Positions 5,987-64,000 of a stretch of 64,000 nt of DNA are shown here, piece after piece. Below the pieces are notes generated by a model. The model did not search any database. It worked only from the letters and a program-made list of their open reading frames with translations, and was not told the origin of the DNA. Source of the stretch: Paenibacillus durus ATCC 35681. GTDB lineage: Bacteria; Bacillota; Bacilli; Paenibacillales; Paenibacillaceae. Numbering within the stretch: position 1 is the first letter of the stretch; the number at the start of each line of letters is the position of its first letter. A program made the position numbers and the translations under genes. The stretch lies in assembly GCF_000993825.1 (NCBI RefSeq), contig NZ_CP011114.1:1984001-2048000 (forward strand), read 5' to 3'.

Positions 5987-8500
5987 ATGAGCACACTTCC
6001 AATTATGCAGATCATGCCTGAACTTAAAAATAGACTTGCGGGCTCCTCATCCGCCGTCCTTATCGCGGAACCGGGAGCGGGTAAGACAACGATGACGCCG
6101 CTCGCGCTGCTGGACGAGCCGTGGATGAAGGGCAAAACCATGCTTATGCTGGAACCCAGGCGGCTTGCCGCCCGAGCGGCGGCCGCCTATATGGCGTCCT
6201 GTCTCGGCGAGCAGGCAGGCCAAACCGTGGGCTACCGGATGCGTATGGACAGCAGGACGGGGCCGAACACACGCATAATCGTCGTAACCGAAGGCGTGCT
6301 GACCAGGGTGCTTCAGGACGACCCTTCGCTGGGCGATACCGGCCTTATCATCTTCGACGAATTCCACGAGCGCAGCCTGAATGCCGATCTGGGGCTTGCG
6401 CTCTCGCTGGAGACGCAGGCTGTACTCCGCGAGGACTTGAAGATCCTCGTGATGTCGGCAACGCTTGACGGAGTGAAGGTCTCCGGGCTGCTTGGCGGTG
6501 CTCCGGTTGTCCGGTGTCCCGGCAGAGTATTTCCGGTAGAAACCGTATACGCGCCTCCGGCGGCAGCAACCCCTCTTGAAAAGGCTGTGGCGAATGCGGC
6601 CCGGCGCGCGCTGGCCGAGCAGCCCGGCGATATCCTGCTGTTTCTCCCGGGCGCGAGAGAAATTCGACGGACGGAGTCGGAGCTAAGGTCCGGTGCGCTG
6701 CCCGGGAACGTGACGCTTCGTCCGCTCTACGGCCAGCTGCCGCAGGCCGAGCAGGACAGCGCCGTTGCGCCGGCTACGGAGGGCCAGCGGAAGGTCGTGC
6801 TGGCGACCTCCATCGCCGAGACAAGTCTGACGATCGAGGGAGTGCGGACCGTGATCGATTCCGGGCTGCGGCGGACGCAGCGGTTCTCGCCGAGAACGGG
6901 CATGCCGCGCCTGGAGACGCTGCCGATTTCCAAGGCATCGGCGGAGCAACGGCGCGGCCGGGCGGGACGGACGGCCCCCGGCGTCTGCTACCGGCTCTGG
7001 AGCCGGGAGGAGCATGACCGCCTGCCGGAATCGGACGCGCCGGAGATTCTGGAGGCCGATCTGGCCGGCCTCGCGCTGGAGCTGGCGCTGTGGGGCGTGC
7101 GCGATCCCGCCCAGCTGGCCTGGCTTGACGCGCCGCCCCCCGCGCCGTATACGCAGGCGACCGCGCTGCTGCGCCAGCTCGGCGCCCTGGACGCCGCCGG
7201 CGCCATTACCCCGCACGGCCGGCGGCTGGCCGCGCTGGGCGCGCACCCCCGCGCCGCGCATATGCTGCTGCGCGCGGCCGGGCTTGGCGCGGCGCCGCTC
7301 GCCTGCCGACTGGCGGCGCTGCTGCAGGAGCGGGACCCGCTGCGCGGTCCCGCCTCGGGCAGCTGCGACCTCACGCTGCGCGTGGAGGTGCTGCTGCGGT
7401 ACGAAGCCTCCGCCGGGCGCGATGCGGGCGGAGGCGATCCTGCGGCTCTGCGCGCTGCTGCGCGCGCGAGCCGGGGGCTGGAGGCGCAGCTGCGGACGGC
7501 GGCGCCAGACCTTTCCGTCGCCGCAGATCCGGCGGATGCTTCCCTCTGCGGCCTGCTGCTGTCGTTCGCCTATCCCGACCGAATCGGGCAGCGCAGAGGC
7601 GAGGGAGCTTTTCTGCTCTCCGGCGGACGCGGCGCGGCAATGGGGGAGAGCCAGCACCTTGCCCGCGAGCCTTATATCGTAGCCGTCTCCGTTGATGACA
7701 AGGGAACGCAGAGCCGTATTATGCTTGCGGCTGCAGTGGAAGAGAAGGATCTGCTGGAGCATCACGCGGATATCGTGACAGAGCGTTCCGAAGTATACTG
7801 GGATGACGAGAGCAAGAGCGTCAAATCCCGCCGCCGCACGATGCTCGGCGAACTCACGCTCAAGGAGTCCGGTCATGAGCGTCCTTCTCCGGAAGAAGCG
7901 GCGAGGGTTCTAATGCAGGTGATTTCCGGGGAGGGTCTAAGACTGCTTCCTTGGGACAAGGGAACTCTGCAGCTTAGGGAACGCTTGGCGTTTATGCACT
8001 GGCTCGACCCTTCCTGGCCGGATGTGTCCGATGAGGGTCTCTCGGGGAGCATGGAAGAGTGGCTGCTTCCCTTTCTAGATGGCTGCCGCAGTCTGCGTGA
8101 GGTCCAGCGTCTGCCACTGCGCGAGGCGCTTGAGAGCATGCTGGACTGGGAACGGAAACGGCGGCTGGATCAGGAGGCTCCAACGCATATCGCGGTTCCC
8201 AGTGGATCACGAATTGCCGTTGATTATAGTGATCCGGCCGCGCCGGTGCTGGCGGTGAAGCTGCAAGAGATGTTCGGGCAGCGGGAGACCCCGCGAATTG
8301 GAGCGGGAAGAGTACCCGTACTGCTTCATCTGCTGTCTCCCGCGCGGCGGCCGGTTCAGGTGACTGCCGATCTTGCGAGCTTTTGGGCCAGCACATATTT
8401 TGATGTCAAGAAAGATTTGAAGGGACGATATCCCAAACATTATTGGCCGGATGATCCGCTTCAAGCCGTACCGACCCATCGGACGCGGCCGATCCAATAA
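5987..8500 (+). CDS. hrpB: ATP-dependent RNA helicase-like protein HrpB (DExH box)
   Basis: An 837-residue DEAH-family helicase. Motif I is EPGAGKTT near residue 28, motif II DEFHERS near 124, motif III SATLD, motif V ETSLTIEG and motif VI QRRGRAGR. The helicase-associated region is followed by the HrpB C-terminal domain ending YPKHYWPDDPL, which separates HrpB from HrpA. In E. coli its role is poorly understood and no essential function is known. The middle part (about 7.0-7.5 kb) is much more GC-rich and alanine/arginine-rich than the flanks, which creates long antisense open frames. The start has GGAG upstream. Monocistronic. Confidence 0.93.
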   Translation: MSTLPIMQIMPELKNRLAGSSSAVLIAEPGAGKTTMTPLALLDEPWMKGKTMLMLEPRRLAARAAAAYMASCLGEQAGQTVGYRMRMDSRTGPNTRIIVVTEGVLTRVLQDDPSLGDTGLIIFDEFHERSLNADLGLALSLETQAVLREDLKILVMSATLDGVKVSGLLGGAPVVRCPGRVFPVETVYAPPAAATPLEKAVANAARRALAEQPGDILLFLPGAREIRRTESELRSGALPGNVTLRPLYGQLPQAEQDSAVAPATEGQRKVVLATSIAETSLTIEGVRTVIDSGLRRTQRFSPRTGMPRLETLPISKASAEQRRGRAGRTAPGVCYRLWSREEHDRLPESDAPEILEADLAGLALELALWGVRDPAQLAWLDAPPPAPYTQATALLRQLGALDAAGAITPHGRRLAALGAHPRAAHMLLRAAGLGAAPLACRLAALLQERDPLRGPASGSCDLTLRVEVLLRYEASAGRDAGGGDPAALRAAARASRGLEAQLRTAAPDLSVAADPADASLCGLLLSFAYPDRIGQRRGEGAFLLSGGRGAAMGESQHLAREPYIVAVSVDDKGTQSRIMLAAAVEEKDLLEHHADIVTERSEVYWDDESKSVKSRRRTMLGELTLKESGHERPSPEEAARVLMQVISGEGLRLLPWDKGTLQLRERLAFMHWLDPSWPDVSDEGLSGSMEEWLLPFLDGCRSLREVQRLPLREALESMLDWERKRRLDQEAPTHIAVPSGSRIAVDYSDPAAPVLAVKLQEMFGQRETPRIGAGRVPVLLHLLSPARRPVQVTADLASFWASTYFDVKKDLKGRYPKHYWPDDPLQAVPTHRTRPIQ

Positions 8501-39495: not shown

Positions 39496-40083
39496 CTATA
39501 TTTTTTTCAAAAATTCATTGAAATATCCATAAAACTCTTCTTTGTTTCCTAAATGCACATTGTGATCGGGATGCGACACTTCATGGGCGAGGCAATTCGG
39601 GATTAGAGATTGCATTTTGCCAAAATCCTCGTCGGAGATGGCATCATTGCCCTTTGCTCTGATTAACAACACCGGACACTTGATGCCCGGTAATAGATGG
39701 AACCAGCTAACATCATACGCAATACCGGCAGCCATAGCCTGAGAGCTGAACATCATCTGATATCCCTCTACCGTTTCGACTAAACTATTCATGAAATATT
39801 GATAGCTCAAATCCGAATCCATGGTTTGCCGAATAAAATCCTGGGCTTCAGTTAAGCTGGAAAATGGTAATGGCCAATCTTTGGTCAAAGGATCAGTGGT
39901 TGGGATTCTAATAGCTCAATCATGTCTTCAGCCATTTCTTCAGCCGTATATTTCGAAATAGGTTTACTGCTCAATCCGTGTCCCCTTTGATCCGGTGCGA
40001 TAATTCTGTATTGCTGCCCATAATGCTCAATAAAATCAACCCAGGTTTCCGCTCTGCCCCATCTTCCATGAAGGCATAGAATC
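39496..40083 (-). pseudogene. Broken alpha/beta hydrolase
   Basis: The N-terminal part reads SKILCLHGRWGRAETWVDFI and APDQRGHGLSSKP, typical alpha/beta-hydrolase strands, but its start is lost at the tnpB fragment. It stops at 39885. The second part (39496-39888) resumes in another frame with the C-terminal region, including the acid-loop segment and the catalytic histidine (HPDHNVHLG). The nucleophile elbow (GxSxG) between them is missing. Both an internal deletion and a 5' truncation are therefore present. Confidence 0.75.
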
Positions 40084-40338
40084 TTGCTGCATAGGTTTCG
40101 TTCCATTTGATTAAGAAATGATTGAAGACAAAACGGCAACAGCCAAACATTCGATGGATGAGTTGCCATTGTTCCGGGTTGGGATAGATGCGATATTTGT
40201 AAGCTTTATGCACCATCATGCCACAAAGCCTCCTTTCGTACAGGATAGTTTCATAATAGCACATATGTTCGCTTTAAGGCAAAAAAACCGCCGATTCATC
40301 TCCTCCCTATAGAGGAAGGAGTCTTCTCGGCTTTTTAG
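40084..40338 (-). mobile_element. Left-end fragment of the tnpB element
   Basis: These 255 bases are nearly identical to 1405-1659. They include the TnpB start (MMVHKAYKYRIYPNPEQ) through FNHFLIKWNETYAA, the ribosome binding site and the left-end hairpin. The flank is again TTTAT on the minus strand. The element's remaining 80% is absent and the fragment joins the hydrolase remnant, in frame over 97 codons. An in-frame AAGGAGG start means a short fusion peptide could be made. Confidence 0.85.
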
Positions 40339-40477
40339 ATAAAAGAGATCGATGCTCTTCAGCTTCGCAATGTTTCTGTGGATTTTTGTTTTTTTCATAT
40401 CCATCATTCCTCGATTGGTCTTAATTTTATTTCTGCTATTCATTATAATCCGAATAAATGTTCCCATGATAGGAAGC

Positions 40478-40501
40478 ATATCATATAATTCATGATATAA
40501 T
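40478..40501 (+). promoter_or_regulatory. Palindromic operator over a -10 element
   Basis: ATATCAT (40478-40484) and ATGATAT (40492-40498) form a perfect inverted repeat overlapping TATAAT at 40496-40501, just before the TerB operon. I see no good -35. The arrangement fits an activator- or repressor-controlled promoter. Confidence 0.5.
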
Positions 40502-40513
40502 GGGAGGAACTAA

Positions 40514-40567
40514 ATGGGCGGTTCTTGGACTGCCGGCAATGGAGCGGGATGGATCGATGAGCTATGA
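40514..40567 (+). CDS. Possible 17-codon leader peptide before terB gene
   Basis: ATG at 40514 has GGGAGG six bases upstream, the best ribosome site in the region. It encodes MGGSWTAGNGAGWIDEL before a TGA that overlaps the likely start of the TerB-domain gene (40557) by 11 bases. It could couple or attenuate translation of the operon. Alternatively a sequencing or natural frameshift separates it from the main gene. Confidence 0.3.
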   Translation: MGGSWTAGNGAGWIDEL

Positions 40568-42485
40568 CGACAAACCGCATTTCTCGGAGCTAATCTGGGA
40601 AGGCGATGAAAAAAATATGGCGGTGCCTTCGCGCGAAGACGTTCGGGCGGAAGAGGCGAAACGTTCAGCCAAGGCGGACAAGAACCGGAGCTTGGCGGAA
40701 AAAAGCCGGGGTCTGCCTGAGAGGCCCGAGCAGCTGAAGCTGTGGGATTTGGAGCTTCCCGGGCGCCGCGAAGAGAAGCGAAGCGGGCGTATTGGCGCGG
40801 CTGTGCCCCGAAGAGACGAGACTGTACATTCAAAAGAGGGCGATCCCCGGAAACAGGTACAGTCTTATGAGGATCGGTATCATACTGCATCGGCAATCGA
40901 ATCCCGAAAGGAGGAGTTCCCAGCTGGCTGGGAGATTTCTTCTCAGATAAATCGTTCCGTAACGGAACAGGCGACGCATCCATACGCCGGTCCGGGAAGG
41001 GATAACGAGTTAGCTTCCGTCTCCAGGCCGGCCACGACGGAAAGCCAATTCGTAGAGCGCGCAAGAGAGCTGGCCGATTACACCGAGGCATCGGCGGAAT
41101 TCGTCAAGTTCAAGAGCTATTGGCCAACTTACGGGCACATGACCGGTCCGCAGACGAAATGGTACTTTTATTGGCGGAATGAAGTCCGGCACGGCCGTTA
41201 TCCCGAAACCGATCTGTCTTATATTTTTCTGCATGTATATGAGCTGATCAATGGCGTCGGCTGGGATACGCCGCAGGACGGCCATGAACAGCTATCTGGG
41301 TTATGGGAAGCTTACCGGGGCACCTTCAAACGTCTGGATCACTATCTTGGCGGCTGGATTGCGGATTTCTCCTTTATCCACGAGTTGGATATTCCGCTGA
41401 GGGAAATTGTCGTCCGGGCCAAGGGGCTGGGCGGTGACCTCGCGGAGCTGGAGCTGGCGCGCTGCCTTACGTTCGCTCCGGAGCAGCTGACTTTGCCCGC
41501 GCTGTCCTTGATGTCGGACTATGACATAACCAAATCGAAGTTCTACACGGGTCCCGGAAGCCAAGCGCTGGAACGTTTTGTTCCGAAAGTAGTGGCCCTA
41601 ATTGACGCATATGTGAGGCGCAAGCACGGCACCTCGCTGCTTGAAATGTTCCCCCCGGACCCTCCGGTGACAAGGGAGCGCTACTTATTTCGCAGCGCCG
41701 TCTATGATATTTCCCTGTACGGCTATTCTGTTCTCGTACCTGTCGCCCGTGTCAGCAAATCGCCGCCGCTGCGCAGCCTGGTTACCCGGCTGTTCCGGCT
41801 TACGGAGAATAAGCTCCGCGCGCTGATGGACTTTCGGGGCCGCCTGAAGGGGATTTCTATTGATAAAGAAATCGAGGAACTTGTCGGCAAATTCCTTGAA
41901 CGGGAATTCCGCAACGCGCAGCTGGAAGAGAAAGGGCCGGACATTGTCATAGATCAGGACAGGCTGGAACAGCTGCGCAGCGACTCGGATGCCGTCCGTC
42001 AACTGCTGATGGTGGAAGAGCCTGCTGAGGAGAAGCCTTCCGTTGAACGGCCTGTGACGGACCTGTCAACTGTGGACGGACCTGTCGCATTGGGGCTATA
42101 TGAGCAGGACGGTGAAGAACAAGAATGGGAGCGGATAAGCGCCGTGCATTCTGCCGATGATGGGGCAAGGGTTCCGGAAAAGCAGGAGCCTGCCGAAGCG
42201 CTTGCACCGTTTGGCGGACCGCAGAATACGACCTCAGCAGCTGGAAACGAATGGGAATCATTGGCCGACGCGCTTAGTCCTTTGCAGCGTGAAGCTGTTC
42301 TGGCTCTCTCCGGACCGGAAGGTCCGGCTGCGCTGCACAGATTAGCCGCCGCCCACGCGGCGCTGCCTGACCTGCTGATTGACGAAATTAACGAAATCGC
42401 AATGGATTTGCTTGGCGACCTGCTAATCGACGGCGAAGAGCTCTCGCCCGAATATGCATCCATGCTGCACTTTTTTAAGAGGTGA
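40557..42485 (+). CDS. TerB-N / TerB-C domain protein
   Basis: A 642-residue protein. The first 150 residues are charged and probably disordered. The TerB-N domain runs at about 155-370, containing FVKFKSYWPTYGHMTGPQTKWYFYWR and YPETDLSYIFLHVYELING. A TerB-C-like helical C-terminus follows (LSPLQREAVLALSGPEGPAALHRLAA, then EEINEIAMDLLGDLLIDGE-like helices). These domains occur in predicted stress-response and DNA-processing cassettes. The gene is followed eight bases later by a BrxD-like ATPase and then a helicase. The start is uncertain: ATGs at 40500 and 40539 are alternatives with weaker sites. Confidence 0.8.
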   Translation: MSYDDKPHFSELIWEGDEKNMAVPSREDVRAEEAKRSAKADKNRSLAEKSRGLPERPEQLKLWDLELPGRREEKRSGRIGAAVPRRDETVHSKEGDPRKQVQSYEDRYHTASAIESRKEEFPAGWEISSQINRSVTEQATHPYAGPGRDNELASVSRPATTESQFVERARELADYTEASAEFVKFKSYWPTYGHMTGPQTKWYFYWRNEVRHGRYPETDLSYIFLHVYELINGVGWDTPQDGHEQLSGLWEAYRGTFKRLDHYLGGWIADFSFIHELDIPLREIVVRAKGLGGDLAELELARCLTFAPEQLTLPALSLMSDYDITKSKFYTGPGSQALERFVPKVVALIDAYVRRKHGTSLLEMFPPDPPVTRERYLFRSAVYDISLYGYSVLVPVARVSKSPPLRSLVTRLFRLTENKLRALMDFRGRLKGISIDKEIEELVGKFLEREFRNAQLEEKGPDIVIDQDRLEQLRSDSDAVRQLLMVEEPAEEKPSVERPVTDLSTVDGPVALGLYEQDGEEQEWERISAVHSADDGARVPEKQEPAEALAPFGGPQNTTSAAGNEWESLADALSPLQREAVLALSGPEGPAALHRLAAAHAALPDLLIDEINEIAMDLLGDLLIDGEELSPEYASMLHFFKR

Positions 42486-42493
42486 GACCTGAA

Positions 42494-43813
42494 ATGAACG
42501 AACTTAAAATCCCAAAAAGAATGACAACGGCGCTGGTCAATTCCCTTACGGCAGGCGTTGTGCCGCGAATCGGACTGGAGCATGTCGCCGTCGGCCGCCG
42601 CGCAGAGATCGAATCGATTCTGCGAGACCTTGACAACATTGCCGAGGGTGGAGCCGCATTCAAGCTCATTACGGGCAAATACGGCAGCGGCAAAAGCTTT
42701 CTGCTGCAAATGATCCGCAACTATGCGATGGACCGCGGCTTCGCGGTTGCCGACGCGGATCTGTCTCCCGAGCGCAGACTCGTCGGCACCAAGGGACAAG
42801 GACTGGCTACATATAAGGAGCTGATGAGCCACTTATCGACCCGTACCCGCCCGGACGGCGGAGCGCTGGAAGCCGTGCTCCAGAAATGGATTTCTTCTCT
42901 TCAGCAGAAGATTATGCAGGAACAGGGGATGGACCCTGGGAATCCGGCTTTTGCCGCCGAAGTCGAGAAAGAGATTTATGCCGTTGCATCGGCTATGCGC
43001 AGCCTTGTGCACGGCTTCGACTTCGCCAAGGTGCTGGCGGCTTACTGGAACGGCCACAAGCTCGGCGACGAAGACGTGAAACAGGAGGCGCTGCGCTGGC
43101 TTCGCGGCGAATTCGCCACACGCACGGAATCCCGCAAGGCGCTGGGCGTTGGCGTCATTATCGATGACGACAACTGGTACGACTATATGAAGCTGTGGGC
43201 GGAATTTTCCGCAGCCATTGGCTACAAAGGGCTGCTGCTGTTCATCGATGAAGGGGTCAACCTGTACAAGATCACGAACAGCGTATCCAGGCAGAGCAAT
43301 TATGAGAAGCTGCTCACCATGTTCAATGACACGATGCAGGGCAAGGCGGAGCATCTGGGGATATTTCTTGGCGGAACGCCGCAATTTGTCGAGGATCACC
43401 GCCGGGGGCTGTTCAGCTACGAGGCGCTGCGGTCCAGGCTTGTGGCCGGACGGTACGGAGCCGCCGCTCCGAGTAATTTCTCGGGGCCGATCATTCCGCT
43501 CGATATGCTGTCTTCCGAGGAGATTCTAGTATTGCTGCAACGACTCCGGGATATTCATGCGCTGCATTATGGCTATGCCCCTGGCTTAACCGACGATCAG
43601 CTTGTCCATTTTATGGAAGAAGCCTCGTCGAGGCTCGGAGCGGATGAGCTTCTGACGCCCCGCGAGCTCGTGCGCGATTTTATGGATCTGCTGCATACGC
43701 TGCACAGCAATCCGGAAGCCTCTTTTGCGAGCCTAGTCGGAGAACGGACCGGCAAATCCGATGAAGGCAAGGACCCATCGATGGATGACCTGCTGGCGGA
43801 GTTTGAGCTATGA
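42494..43813 (+). CDS. BrxD-like P-loop ATPase (BrxC/BrxD, DUF2791 family)
   Basis: A 439-residue ATPase. Opening GVVPRIGLEHVAVGRRAEIESIL and Walker A (GKYGSGKSFLLQM) match BrxD of BREX type 2/3 systems. Walker B is LLLFIDEGV; TRQSN-like sensor and arginine-finger regions follow. In BREX, BrxD is paired with the helicase BrxHI, and the same pairing exists here without PglX, PglZ or other BREX genes. AAGAGGTGA precedes the ATG. It overlaps the helicase start by four bases. Confidence 0.82.
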   Translation: MNELKIPKRMTTALVNSLTAGVVPRIGLEHVAVGRRAEIESILRDLDNIAEGGAAFKLITGKYGSGKSFLLQMIRNYAMDRGFAVADADLSPERRLVGTKGQGLATYKELMSHLSTRTRPDGGALEAVLQKWISSLQQKIMQEQGMDPGNPAFAAEVEKEIYAVASAMRSLVHGFDFAKVLAAYWNGHKLGDEDVKQEALRWLRGEFATRTESRKALGVGVIIDDDNWYDYMKLWAEFSAAIGYKGLLLFIDEGVNLYKITNSVSRQSNYEKLLTMFNDTMQGKAEHLGIFLGGTPQFVEDHRRGLFSYEALRSRLVAGRYGAAAPSNFSGPIIPLDMLSSEEILVLLQRLRDIHALHYGYAPGLTDDQLVHFMEEASSRLGADELLTPRELVRDFMDLLHTLHSNPEASFASLVGERTGKSDEGKDPSMDDLLAEFEL

Positions 43814-46005
43814 GCGATAACCCGTTTTACCGGCTTGCACCGTTTATTAAGGAGTTTATTTACAAAAACCGCTGGGAGACGCTCCGCGAAGCGCAGGTGG
43901 ATGCCTGCCGGGTGCTGCTGGAATCGCCGGATCATCTGCTGATTGCATCGGGAACCGCATCCGGCAAGACGGAGGCGGCATTTTTCCCTGCACTGACGGA
44001 GCTTTACGAGAAGCCCTCTTCTTCGGTAGGGATACTATACATTGCCCCGCTTAAGGCGCTGATCAACGACCAGTTTACCAGGCTGAACGACCTGCTGCTG
44101 GAGGGCGGTATTCCTGTCTGGCATTGGCATGGCGATGTGCCGCAGGCCGAGAAGACGAAGCTGATGAAGAACCCCTCCGGTGTGCTTCAGATAACCCCTG
44201 AGTCGCTGGAAGGCCTGCTGATGAACCGTCCAAATGCCATTCCGGCGCTGTTTGGCGATCTGCGCTTTGTCATTATTGACGAAGTGCATGCCTTTATGGG
44301 CGCGGACCGGGGAATCCAGGTGCTCAGCCTCCTGGCAAGGATCTCCCGTATGGCGGGCTGTTCGCCGCGCCGAATCGGGCTATCCGCTACGCTCAGCGAT
44401 TATGGCACCGCCACACACTGGCTTGCCGCAGGGACGCGGGAGCAGGTGCAGGTATCCGCGCCGCAGGGCGGGAGGAAGCTTCGGTTGAGTGTTGAGCATT
44501 TTTCTTTTCCCGATGCGAGGGACGAGAAGCAGTCCGAAGCGCTGGAGCTTGCCCGCAAGGCGTATTATGACTATATTTACGACCACACCCGGCTCAAAAA
44601 AGCGCTCGTCTTCACCAACAGCCGTACCGATGCGGAAACGGCGATCCTTGAAATGAGGCGCATCGCGGCGAAGCGCCAGGAGCCGGACGTGTTCCACGTC
44701 CACCACGGCAGCATTTCCGCGATGCTGCGGGAGGAGGCGGAAGCCGCGCTTCGCGAGGGCTCCGGTGCGGCGGTCGCCGCAGCGACGCTCACGCTGGAGC
44801 TGGGCATCGATCTTGGCCAGCTGGAGCGGGTCATGCAGCTCGGGGCGCCGTACAGCTGCTCCAGCTTCGTGCAGCGGCTGGGCCGCTCGGGTCGGCGGGG
44901 CGACGCCGCCGCGGAGATGATGTTCGTCACGCCGGAGGAAGAGGACGAGGAAGCGCAGCTGCCGGCGCGCATGCCCTGGACACTGCTCCGGGCAATCGCC
45001 GTTATCGAGCTGTATGTGCGGGAGAGATGGGTCGAGCCGCTGATGGTCCGGCAAATGCCGGTCGGGCTGCTGTACCACCAGACGATGAGCATCCTGAAGA
45101 GCATGGGTGAGGCAGAGCCGGAGGAGCTCCGCGATGCCGTTCTCTCACTGCCTTCTTTTAAAGGGTTCAGCGAAGAGGATTATGATGCCTTTATGGCTTA
45201 CCAGCTTGGAATGGGGCAGATTGAGCAAATGGACGAAGGCAGTCTGTTGATCGGGCTTGCCGGTGAGAAAATCGTCAACAATTTCCGCTTTCTGGCCGTC
45301 TTCAAGGACGATGAGGAGCATGTCGTATATAACGGAACAGAGGAAATCGGCTCGATTACAACTGTACCGCCGCCGGGTTACTGCTTCACGCTGGCTGGCA
45401 AGCTGTGGAAGGTGGAAGAGGTCGACAACCGCCACAAGGCGGTATATGTGAAGGCTTCGCGCGGCAAAGTCGATACGCTGTGGCTTGGCGCAGGCGGCGA
45501 TGTGCATACCCGGATTATGACCAAAATCCGGGACATTCTTGGCGATACGGCGCTGTACCCGTATCTCGCGCCGAGAGCGGCGGCCCGGCTCGAACGGGCA
45601 AGGCGGCTGGCGCGGGAGAGTGGGCTGCTTCAGCGCTCCGTGCTTCCGGCGGGCGGCGACTCGTTGTTCATTCTGCCCTGGGCGGGCAGCCGGACCTTCC
45701 GCACGCTGGAGCGGCTGCTGAAGCATCAGCTGACGCGTCCGTTGGGGCTGCGCTCGGTAGTGCCGATGGAGCCGTACTACATGGTCGTCGCCGGTAAAGC
45801 CGACGCTGACTGGCTGGAGGCTTCCATCATGGAAGCAAGCTCCGGCGGACTCGACCCGCTTGCGCTGCTGTCGCCGGGCGAAGCCCCATACCTCGGAAAA
45901 TACGACGAGTGGATTCCCCAGGATCTGCTGCGCAAAGCTTTTTCGGTGGACGGTCTGGATGTCCCGGGCTTCCATGAAATGGTTAAACGTTGGCGGATGG
46001 ACTAA
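43810..46005 (+). CDS. Lhr-like / BrxHI-like superfamily II helicase
   Basis: A 731-residue helicase. Motif I is IASGTASGKTEA, Ia APLKALIND, II DEVHAF, III LSATLS, and VI QRLGRSGRRGD; TLELGIDLG is motif V. The C-terminal portion (about 400-731) has a winged-helix-like and a beta-rich domain as in Lhr-related proteins. DNA or RNA-DNA unwinding in 3'-5' direction is typical of the family. ATGA overlap with the ATPase gene indicates translational coupling. A terminator follows. Confidence 0.88.
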   Translation: MSDNPFYRLAPFIKEFIYKNRWETLREAQVDACRVLLESPDHLLIASGTASGKTEAAFFPALTELYEKPSSSVGILYIAPLKALINDQFTRLNDLLLEGGIPVWHWHGDVPQAEKTKLMKNPSGVLQITPESLEGLLMNRPNAIPALFGDLRFVIIDEVHAFMGADRGIQVLSLLARISRMAGCSPRRIGLSATLSDYGTATHWLAAGTREQVQVSAPQGGRKLRLSVEHFSFPDARDEKQSEALELARKAYYDYIYDHTRLKKALVFTNSRTDAETAILEMRRIAAKRQEPDVFHVHHGSISAMLREEAEAALREGSGAAVAAATLTLELGIDLGQLERVMQLGAPYSCSSFVQRLGRSGRRGDAAAEMMFVTPEEEDEEAQLPARMPWTLLRAIAVIELYVRERWVEPLMVRQMPVGLLYHQTMSILKSMGEAEPEELRDAVLSLPSFKGFSEEDYDAFMAYQLGMGQIEQMDEGSLLIGLAGEKIVNNFRFLAVFKDDEEHVVYNGTEEIGSITTVPPPGYCFTLAGKLWKVEEVDNRHKAVYVKASRGKVDTLWLGAGGDVHTRIMTKIRDILGDTALYPYLAPRAAARLERARRLARESGLLQRSVLPAGGDSLFILPWAGSRTFRTLERLLKHQLTRPLGLRSVVPMEPYYMVVAGKADADWLEASIMEASSGGLDPLALLSPGEAPYLGKYDEWIPQDLLRKAFSVDGLDVPGFHEMVKRWRMD

Positions 46006-46030
46006 TCTCATTCCAAGAGCCATTACCAAA

Positions 46031-46070
46031 AAACTCCCGATCCGCTGGTATCAGCAGATCGGGAGTTTTT
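46031..46070 (+). terminator. Terminator of the TerB-ATPase-helicase operon
   Basis: AAACTCCCGATC pairs with GATCGGGAGTTT and is followed by TTTTT-like sequence. Together with the tail TAGGATCGTGTAATATA (46073-46089) it recurs near 54.9 kb in inverted orientation. Confidence 0.9.
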
Positions 46071-63765: not shown

Positions 63766-64000
63766 GTGCCCAGATAAGCACGCATCTTCTAGCCGGTGAA
63801 AGTCCGGTCACGGGAGGGACCAAGCCCCCGTGTAGCTAGGATACCTGCGTATGGCGAAATCTGTGCGTAGAAGCGTATCGACGAAAGTACTTGTCAGAGA
63901 CAAGGCGAGCAACATACCAGGCCGTAACATAAAGTGAATCCTGCCGCGTCGTCAAAAAGGCCTCGCAAGAGGGACAAGAGGAAGCCGAGTCTCGGATCAT
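63766..64000 (+). ncRNA. Group II intron, 5' portion (cut by window edge)
   Basis: The sequence begins GTGCC in a GCGTGC/GCACGC stem and continues with structured motifs typical of bacterial group II intron domain I: GCCGGTGAAAGTCCGG, the ACGGGAGGG...CCCCCGT stem, and CATAAAGTGAATCCTGCC. The intron-encoded protein and 3' end would be beyond 64000. It begins just after a terminator. The class is not certain. Confidence 0.65.

Follow-up and report, generated by a model that had tools for sequence, protein, structure and literature searches.

The window analyzed here, a stretch of 64,000 nucleotides from Paenibacillus durus ATCC 35681 (NZ_CP011114.1, positions 1,984,001 to 2,048,000), carries on its forward strand a cassette of three genes, sngA (40557..42485, 642 amino acids), sngB (42494..43813, 439 amino acids), and sngC (43810..46005, 731 amino acids), which is, with near certainty, the antiphage system Shango: SngA is a TerB_N/TerB_C protein, SngB a P-loop ATPase of the BrxC/BrxD type, and SngC an Lhr-like superfamily 2 (SF2) helicase. 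Shango is part of the core genome in Paenibacillus and is inherited largely vertically there, while elsewhere it is patchy and mobile. The reading we prefer, with about even confidence, is that of a resident, DNA-damage-inducible Shango which would remodel abnormal DNA and serve both genome integrity and phage defense.

Each of the three proteins had its best PADLOC match in the corresponding Shango model, i.e., SngA at 1.9e-111 (PDLC03958), SngB at 1.2e-201 (PDLC03959, residues 1-439), and SngC at 2e-238 (PDLC03960, residues 2-726 of 731). In Pfam, TerB_N (4.8e-35) and TerB_C (3.6e-11) were both above the gathering cutoff in SngA, BrxC_BrxD was found in SngB (2e-162), and SngC matched DEAD (1.4e-25) and Helicase_C (3.6e-15) and, below the threshold, the Lhr winged helix. 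Excerpts of PMC10250203 describe the three-gene Shango of PA14 as composed of a TerB-like protein, an ATPase, and a DEAD/DEAH helicase, and report that in PAO1 it gives a modest, 10- to 100-fold protection against many, not all, phages; they also mention Shango from E. coli islands, and excerpts of PMC11096173 place it in E. coli genomic islands. No description of a mechanism of Shango was found in the part of the literature that was searched. The initial annotation had proposed a stand-alone module of a TerB protein, a BrxD-like ATPase, and a BrxHI-like helicase with a possible antiphage or repair role, which was correct; what it missed was that this trio is the already named, antiphage-active Shango.

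The cassette might alternatively be viewed as what is left of a BREX locus (BrxD/BrxHI), to which a TerB gene was added, and the second-best PADLOC models were indeed BrxD for SngB (5e-48) and BrxHI for SngC (3.1e-123). Such an origin is extremely unlikely: the Shango models outscored those of BrxD and BrxHI by about 500 and 380 bits, no BREX model was the best match, and the trio with the TerB protein recurs in bacteria and in one archaeon. The initial annotation had given PglX and PglZ as absent, a negative behind which no search aimed at these two stands; the window's own genome (5.58 Mb, single contig) has one PF10923 gene. A search of 299 genomes of the class with the BrxD model at 1e-90 gave no match, which shows little, as the controls gave none either. 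We also consider very improbable a Ter-type metal or tellurite stress system, which would account for the TerB_N/TerB_C domains of SngA, but no further Ter domain was present among the scanned neighbors and the partners of SngA are DNA-type enzymes.

Among 100 Paenibacillus genomes, counted as one gene per genome with gene pieces taken together, SngA was matched in all (E <= 0.001) and SngC in 98 (E <= 1e-150); the two genomes with no SngC match were an assembly of 900 contigs (G021) and one that was 71% complete (G089). In all 98 genomes with both proteins, the two lay on a single contig and on the same strand, less than 4 kb apart (read by eye), and SngB stood between them, in the order A-B-C, in each of the 40 loci fetched from the genus. 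The search for this order across genomes, which the initial annotation had called for, also recovered it in 18 of the 20 fetched family loci, and sngABC were codirectional in 76/80 named loci. By comparison, Hachiman, represented by one HamB model (E <= 1e-80), was detected in 2 of these 100 genomes. The nearest named SngB proteins were those of Paenibacillus zanthoxyli (98%), P. forsythiae (96%), and P. sinensis (87%), and the nearest named SngA was that of P. durus (86%).

The descent of the operon followed that of the genomes to a large extent. The mean identity over 30 genomes was 0.942 for rpoB, 0.794 for SngC, 0.787 for SngB, and 0.462 for SngA, and the Sng distances correlated with those of rpoB (r of 0.826 to 0.857), a level reached in none of 2,000 permutations. 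The tree of SngB plus SngC had 15 of 27 splits in common with the rpoB tree, against at most 2 after shuffling of the labels. Purifying selection on SngB and SngC is strong, about as tight as on the neighboring MFS and CNNM genes, and SngA is looser: the ratio of nonsynonymous to synonymous substitution rates in eight pairs was 0.033 to 0.055 for SngB, 0.012 to 0.056 for SngC, and 0.157 to 0.261 for SngA, and it was 0 to 0.095 for the MFS gene and 0 to 0.114 for the CNNM gene (seven pairs). The genes before sngA formed the same block in 24 of the 40 genus loci (counted by eye), including a CNNM protein and an MFS transporter, both also present in the window; six further loci had the MFS gene with an insert, and in the remaining ten the surroundings differed, most of these contexts recurring in more than one of those loci. 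The scanned neighbors were metabolic, and a scan of 101 representatives of the flanking proteins at 1e-20 recognized no complete defense system. The initial annotation had held that universal conservation in a fixed housekeeping context would speak against a role in defense; half of this picture is seen in Paenibacillus, where the operon is core and lies in conserved nondefense contexts within subclades, whereas elsewhere Shango has a patchy distribution and is frequently carried by conjugative plasmids.

In the SngC tree, the core copies of Paenibacillaceae grouped with a copy from a P. peoriae plasmid (support of 99), and this group joined two 2-Mb genomes of the family f55 in a larger one (support of 100). 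The core copies by themselves had a support of 83; the tree of SngB placed the P. peoriae copy among them (78). Shango of other Bacilli stood apart (13 rows, support of 99, including second-type copies from g6 and f6), as did that of Gram-negative and archaeal plasmids (5 rows, support of 99); this tree was not rooted by an outgroup, and the long branches meeting in it are a warning. SngC of the window clade was 31 to 37% identical to that of other Bacilli. Judged by these comparisons of sequences, Shango of Paenibacillus is a divergent, resident type, distinct from the patchily distributed Shango found in other Bacilli and on Gram-negative plasmids. One genome, G172, holds both types, the core one at L069 and the other-Bacilli one at L259. 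The two f55 loci (L261 and L262), with SngB 51 to 53% and SngC 44 to 46% identical to those of the window, come closest to the Paenibacillus lineage from outside it and have LexA-like boxes upstream.

Beyond the genus, Shango is common in some sister genera of Paenibacillus. SngA was found in 90/197 genomes and 8/19 genera of the family, and SngB in 100/246 genomes and 9/46 genera of the order and, at 1e-60, in 53/398 genomes and 14/145 genera of the class; of the ten SngB-positive genera outside the family, seven had a single match, and g117, g131, and g146 had four, three, and two, respectively. In eight Saccharibacillus loci (L238, L240, and L242-L247), SngA had 1,228 to 1,554 amino acids and SngB 530 to 687 (493 in L247, at a contig end), with SngC still near 730 where present. 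DNA of the sngBC genes of a Klebsiella plasmid matched 771 of 5,426 E. coli genomes, with a coverage of at least 80% in 469, and the plasmid records with relatives of SngC numbered 694 (548 conjugative), mostly from Klebsiella and Salmonella. The A-B-C order was also found in annotated plasmids of Klebsiella, Salmonella, Sphingobium, Halocatena, and Paracoccus, the archaeal, Sphingobium, Paracoccus, and Salmonella operons being recognized by annotation only (TerB N-terminal protein, ATP-binding protein, helicase). PADLOC called Shango from all three proteins in the Klebsiella and P. peoriae operons and from SngA and SngB in L259, L263, and L261. The P. peoriae plasmid (L276) has 213 kb, and a cytosine methyltransferase gene lies about 5 kb downstream of its Shango.

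This distribution bears on two further explanations. According to the first, which is possible but clearly less probable than the preferred one, the operon is a plain antiphage Shango fixed in Paenibacillus as innate immunity, with no repair role. Each protein of the trio matches its Shango model, homologous operons protect P. aeruginosa and, as the excerpts of PMC10250203 cite, E. coli against phages, the system is mobile and patchy elsewhere, as the plasmid and E. coli counts attest, and a copy of the Paenibacillus clade resides on the P. peoriae plasmid. Presence in 100/100 genomes, scanned flanks with no complete defense system recognized, and a largely vertical descent are, however, unusual for defense, and SngB and SngC evolve slowly. 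The second, which we regard as unlikely, is a housekeeping operon for DNA repair or replication conflicts with no antiphage activity in the clade, mobile Shango being a co-opted branch, or the reverse. It would fit an operon that is core, largely vertical, constrained, linked to SOS in part of the clade, and phylogenetically separate from other Shango, and the solved helicases nearest to SngC include Lhr-type enzymes and YprA, which take part in damage repair. The limited spread over the genera of the family (SngA) and of the class (SngB) is nevertheless not that of a general repair system, and a relative of the operon is found on the P. peoriae plasmid.

A LexA (SOS)-like box, CGAATAAATGTTCC, is located upstream of sngA (40451..40464, + strand) and scored 16.4 with a position weight matrix; it overlaps the -35 element of a predicted sigma-70-like promoter, TTCCCA-17-TATAAT (40461..40489, + strand; 10/12 in a consensus scan, a consensus match only). 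The box has 12 of 14 letters equal to those of the recA box of the clade, CGAATGTATGTTCG, which was present in the recA promoter of 26/27 relatives, and no other site of the window matched with two or fewer mismatches, 0.7 being expected by chance. The matrix was built from 14 distinct boxes in the lexA and recA promoters of 30 relatives (28 and 27 usable), picked by their likeness to a B. subtilis consensus. In 21 of 58 loci (the 60 fetched plus the window, minus three with no clustered SngA), a score of at least 12 was reached upstream of SngA (-300 to +100), compared with 18 of 1,160 shuffles that approximately kept the dinucleotide composition and, among other genes of these loci, 14 of 631. 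Among the named loci, whose species overlap with those of the 58-locus set, it was reached in 32/75 versus 6/668 random windows. On a tree of 56 loci, a minimum of 13 changes in the state of the box was counted, which means repeated gain or loss of the link to LexA; since in addition the letters of the box differ between subclades, it is not a single inherited accident. Four of 14 loci of the noncore type (L261, L262, L263, and L264) also scored above 12, but the matches came from 1,100-base stretches upstream of SngA with no length-matched control and are suggestive only. The operon of the window is likely under SOS control, a feature that is not universal in the clade. Two side observations were made: the recA gene of one Paenibacillus genome (G071:C1:3338858-3342807) is in two pieces about 3 kb apart, perhaps owing to an intron, intein, or insertion, and a LexA-like site upstream of an AAA_23/SMC-like gene (G000:C1:3010279, L300) marks another candidate SOS gene.

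For the plain antiphage alternative, the box would merely time expression to prophage induction or phage replication. A resident, damage-inducible Shango, on the other hand, has to be weighed against several observations. Twelve of the 27 splits disagreed with the rpoB tree, and three of the conflicts were well supported on both sides; each of these involved a genome of another genus, none falling inside the window's group, and they indicate some transfer between genera. That the plasmid copy of P. peoriae branches within the Paenibacillus clade or at its border implies that the core-type Shango can move. SngA was broken in a few assemblies (three pieces in G061, two in G043, and stops within the match in G041), and four loci (L217, L249, L252, and L254) had interrupted frames in one or more sng genes. 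Outside the genus the operon is not universal, as the sister genera g7 and g18 include genomes with no SngB, and in two genomes of the sister genus g6 (L257 and L258) SngA lies about 15 kb from SngB-SngC, all three being kept, so that tight coupling is not indispensable. Because 37 of the 58 loci had no box scoring 12, SOS control is no general reason for the retention of the operon. Finally, no phage or DNA damage phenotype of the Paenibacillus clade was found in the literature searched. The insert between SngA and SngB in L257 was seen to contain sugar transport, LacI-type, and amylase genes.

As to the proteins themselves, the TerB_N region of SngA (residues 152-488, 41010..42020, + strand) was predicted to be all helical with an additional beta hairpin (AlphaFold2 mean pLDDT of 89.7), and its comparison with PDB folds gave no convincing match; the TerB_C region comprises residues 564-642 (42246..42482, + strand). 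The initial annotation had described a long disordered N terminus of SngA, which holds for residues 73-150 (pLDDT of <50, as also for residues 492-563), but residues 26-49 form a predicted helix and a short F-x-E motif (F9 and E11, 40581..40589, + strand) was invariant in an alignment of 53 SngA proteins, the rest of the N terminus being variable. SngB has the Walker A motif GKYGSGKS at residue 61, and SngC has DEVH at residue 157 and QRLGRSGR at residue 355. The solved sequence nearest to SngC was 5v9x (7.9e-30), an ATP-dependent DNA helicase which we take to be Lhr. No nuclease domain was reported in SngA, SngB, or SngC.

These features can be assembled into a mechanism for the resident, damage-inducible Shango. 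In the window's lineage, LexA would repress sngABC through the box described above, and DNA damage, or a phage genome yielding single-stranded DNA, would activate RecA, with cleavage of LexA and expression of the operon as the outcome. SngA may act as a scaffold, its TerB_N core and a possibly winged-helix-like C terminus joining the partners and DNA, and its flexible N terminus with the F-x-E motif could dock a partner. As their families suggest, SngB would spend ATP to load or license SngC on abnormal DNA, for instance on intermediates of replication and repair that are branched, stalled, or single stranded. Since none of the three proteins has a reported nuclease domain, the outcome is probably that DNA is unwound or remodeled; this would block the replication of phage DNA and may also help to clear damaged chromosomal intermediates. 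A single machine for genome integrity and phage defense would explain the retention of the operon throughout the lineage. The antiphage role of the window clade is one that we infer by analogy with distant relatives. A broader idea, which we put forward tentatively and consider doubtful, is that Shango is at root a DNA damage response machine, a core and often LexA-controlled genome maintenance operon in Paenibacillus, and that it acts against phages elsewhere through this same ability to recognize abnormal replicating DNA, carried there by mobile elements. A core, slowly evolving lineage, partly equipped with damage boxes, offers a direct handle on Shango: damaged or branched DNA may be what triggers it, and Paenibacillus knockouts can be scored with no phage. 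Automatic counts of defense systems in Paenibacillus may list this core operon as acquired defense.

The tight coupling of the genes reported in the initial annotation was confirmed, with a gap of 8 bases between sngA and sngB (ATG at 42494) and an overlap of four bases between sngB and sngC, as was the terminator after the third gene: an intrinsic terminator with a long stem and a T run (46029..46070, + strand) had a folding energy of -28.8 kcal/mol (z of -7.98), with none of 200 shuffles as stable. It was absent from the output of the consensus scan, probably owing to a mismatch inside the stem. A longer sngA starting at an in-frame ATG at 40500 is possible, but the start at 40557 is preferred because the upstream frame hits a stop in two relatives (L027 and L054, read by eye). 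Directly upstream of sngA, the region 39496-40264 of the - strand looks like a decayed gene plus a transposon remnant; it includes an alpha/beta hydrolase piece (39885-40169), an open reading frame with no Pfam match (39496-39888), and an overlapping fragment with an IS605 OrfB N-terminal domain (39971-40264). Elsewhere in the window, an HrpB-type helicase gene lies at 5987-8500, where positions 6001-8000 have a GC content of 67%, compared with 41 to 61% in the other 2-kb stretches, and a group II intron domain (RF02003) was matched at the window end (63790-63932).

Compared with known systems, the cassette shares with Shango the same three genes, order, and domains, and the Shango models are the best PADLOC matches for all three proteins, as for the Klebsiella plasmid operon; it differs in that the window clade is a separate lineage, core in its genus versus patchy elsewhere, with no visible defense island around it and with a LexA box in part of the clade. 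The ATPase and helicase are homologous to BrxD and BrxHI of BREX, but SngB and SngC score far lower against these than against their own Shango models, and we know of no BREX counterpart of SngA. Like Shango as we read it here, Hachiman (HamAB) is a helicase-based defense, sensing genome integrity according to excerpts of PMC12278908, but HamB is close to Ski2 helicases and its partner is the nuclease HamA, whereas no nuclease was recognized in the window trio. The Lhr and YprA (MrfA) helicases are among the nearest solved relatives of SngC; in contrast to them, SngC belongs to an operon with SngA and SngB and to the group of SngC, BrxHI, DruE, and DpdJ, antiphage helicases that, according to the same excerpts of PMC12278908, potentially form an SF2 clade of their own.

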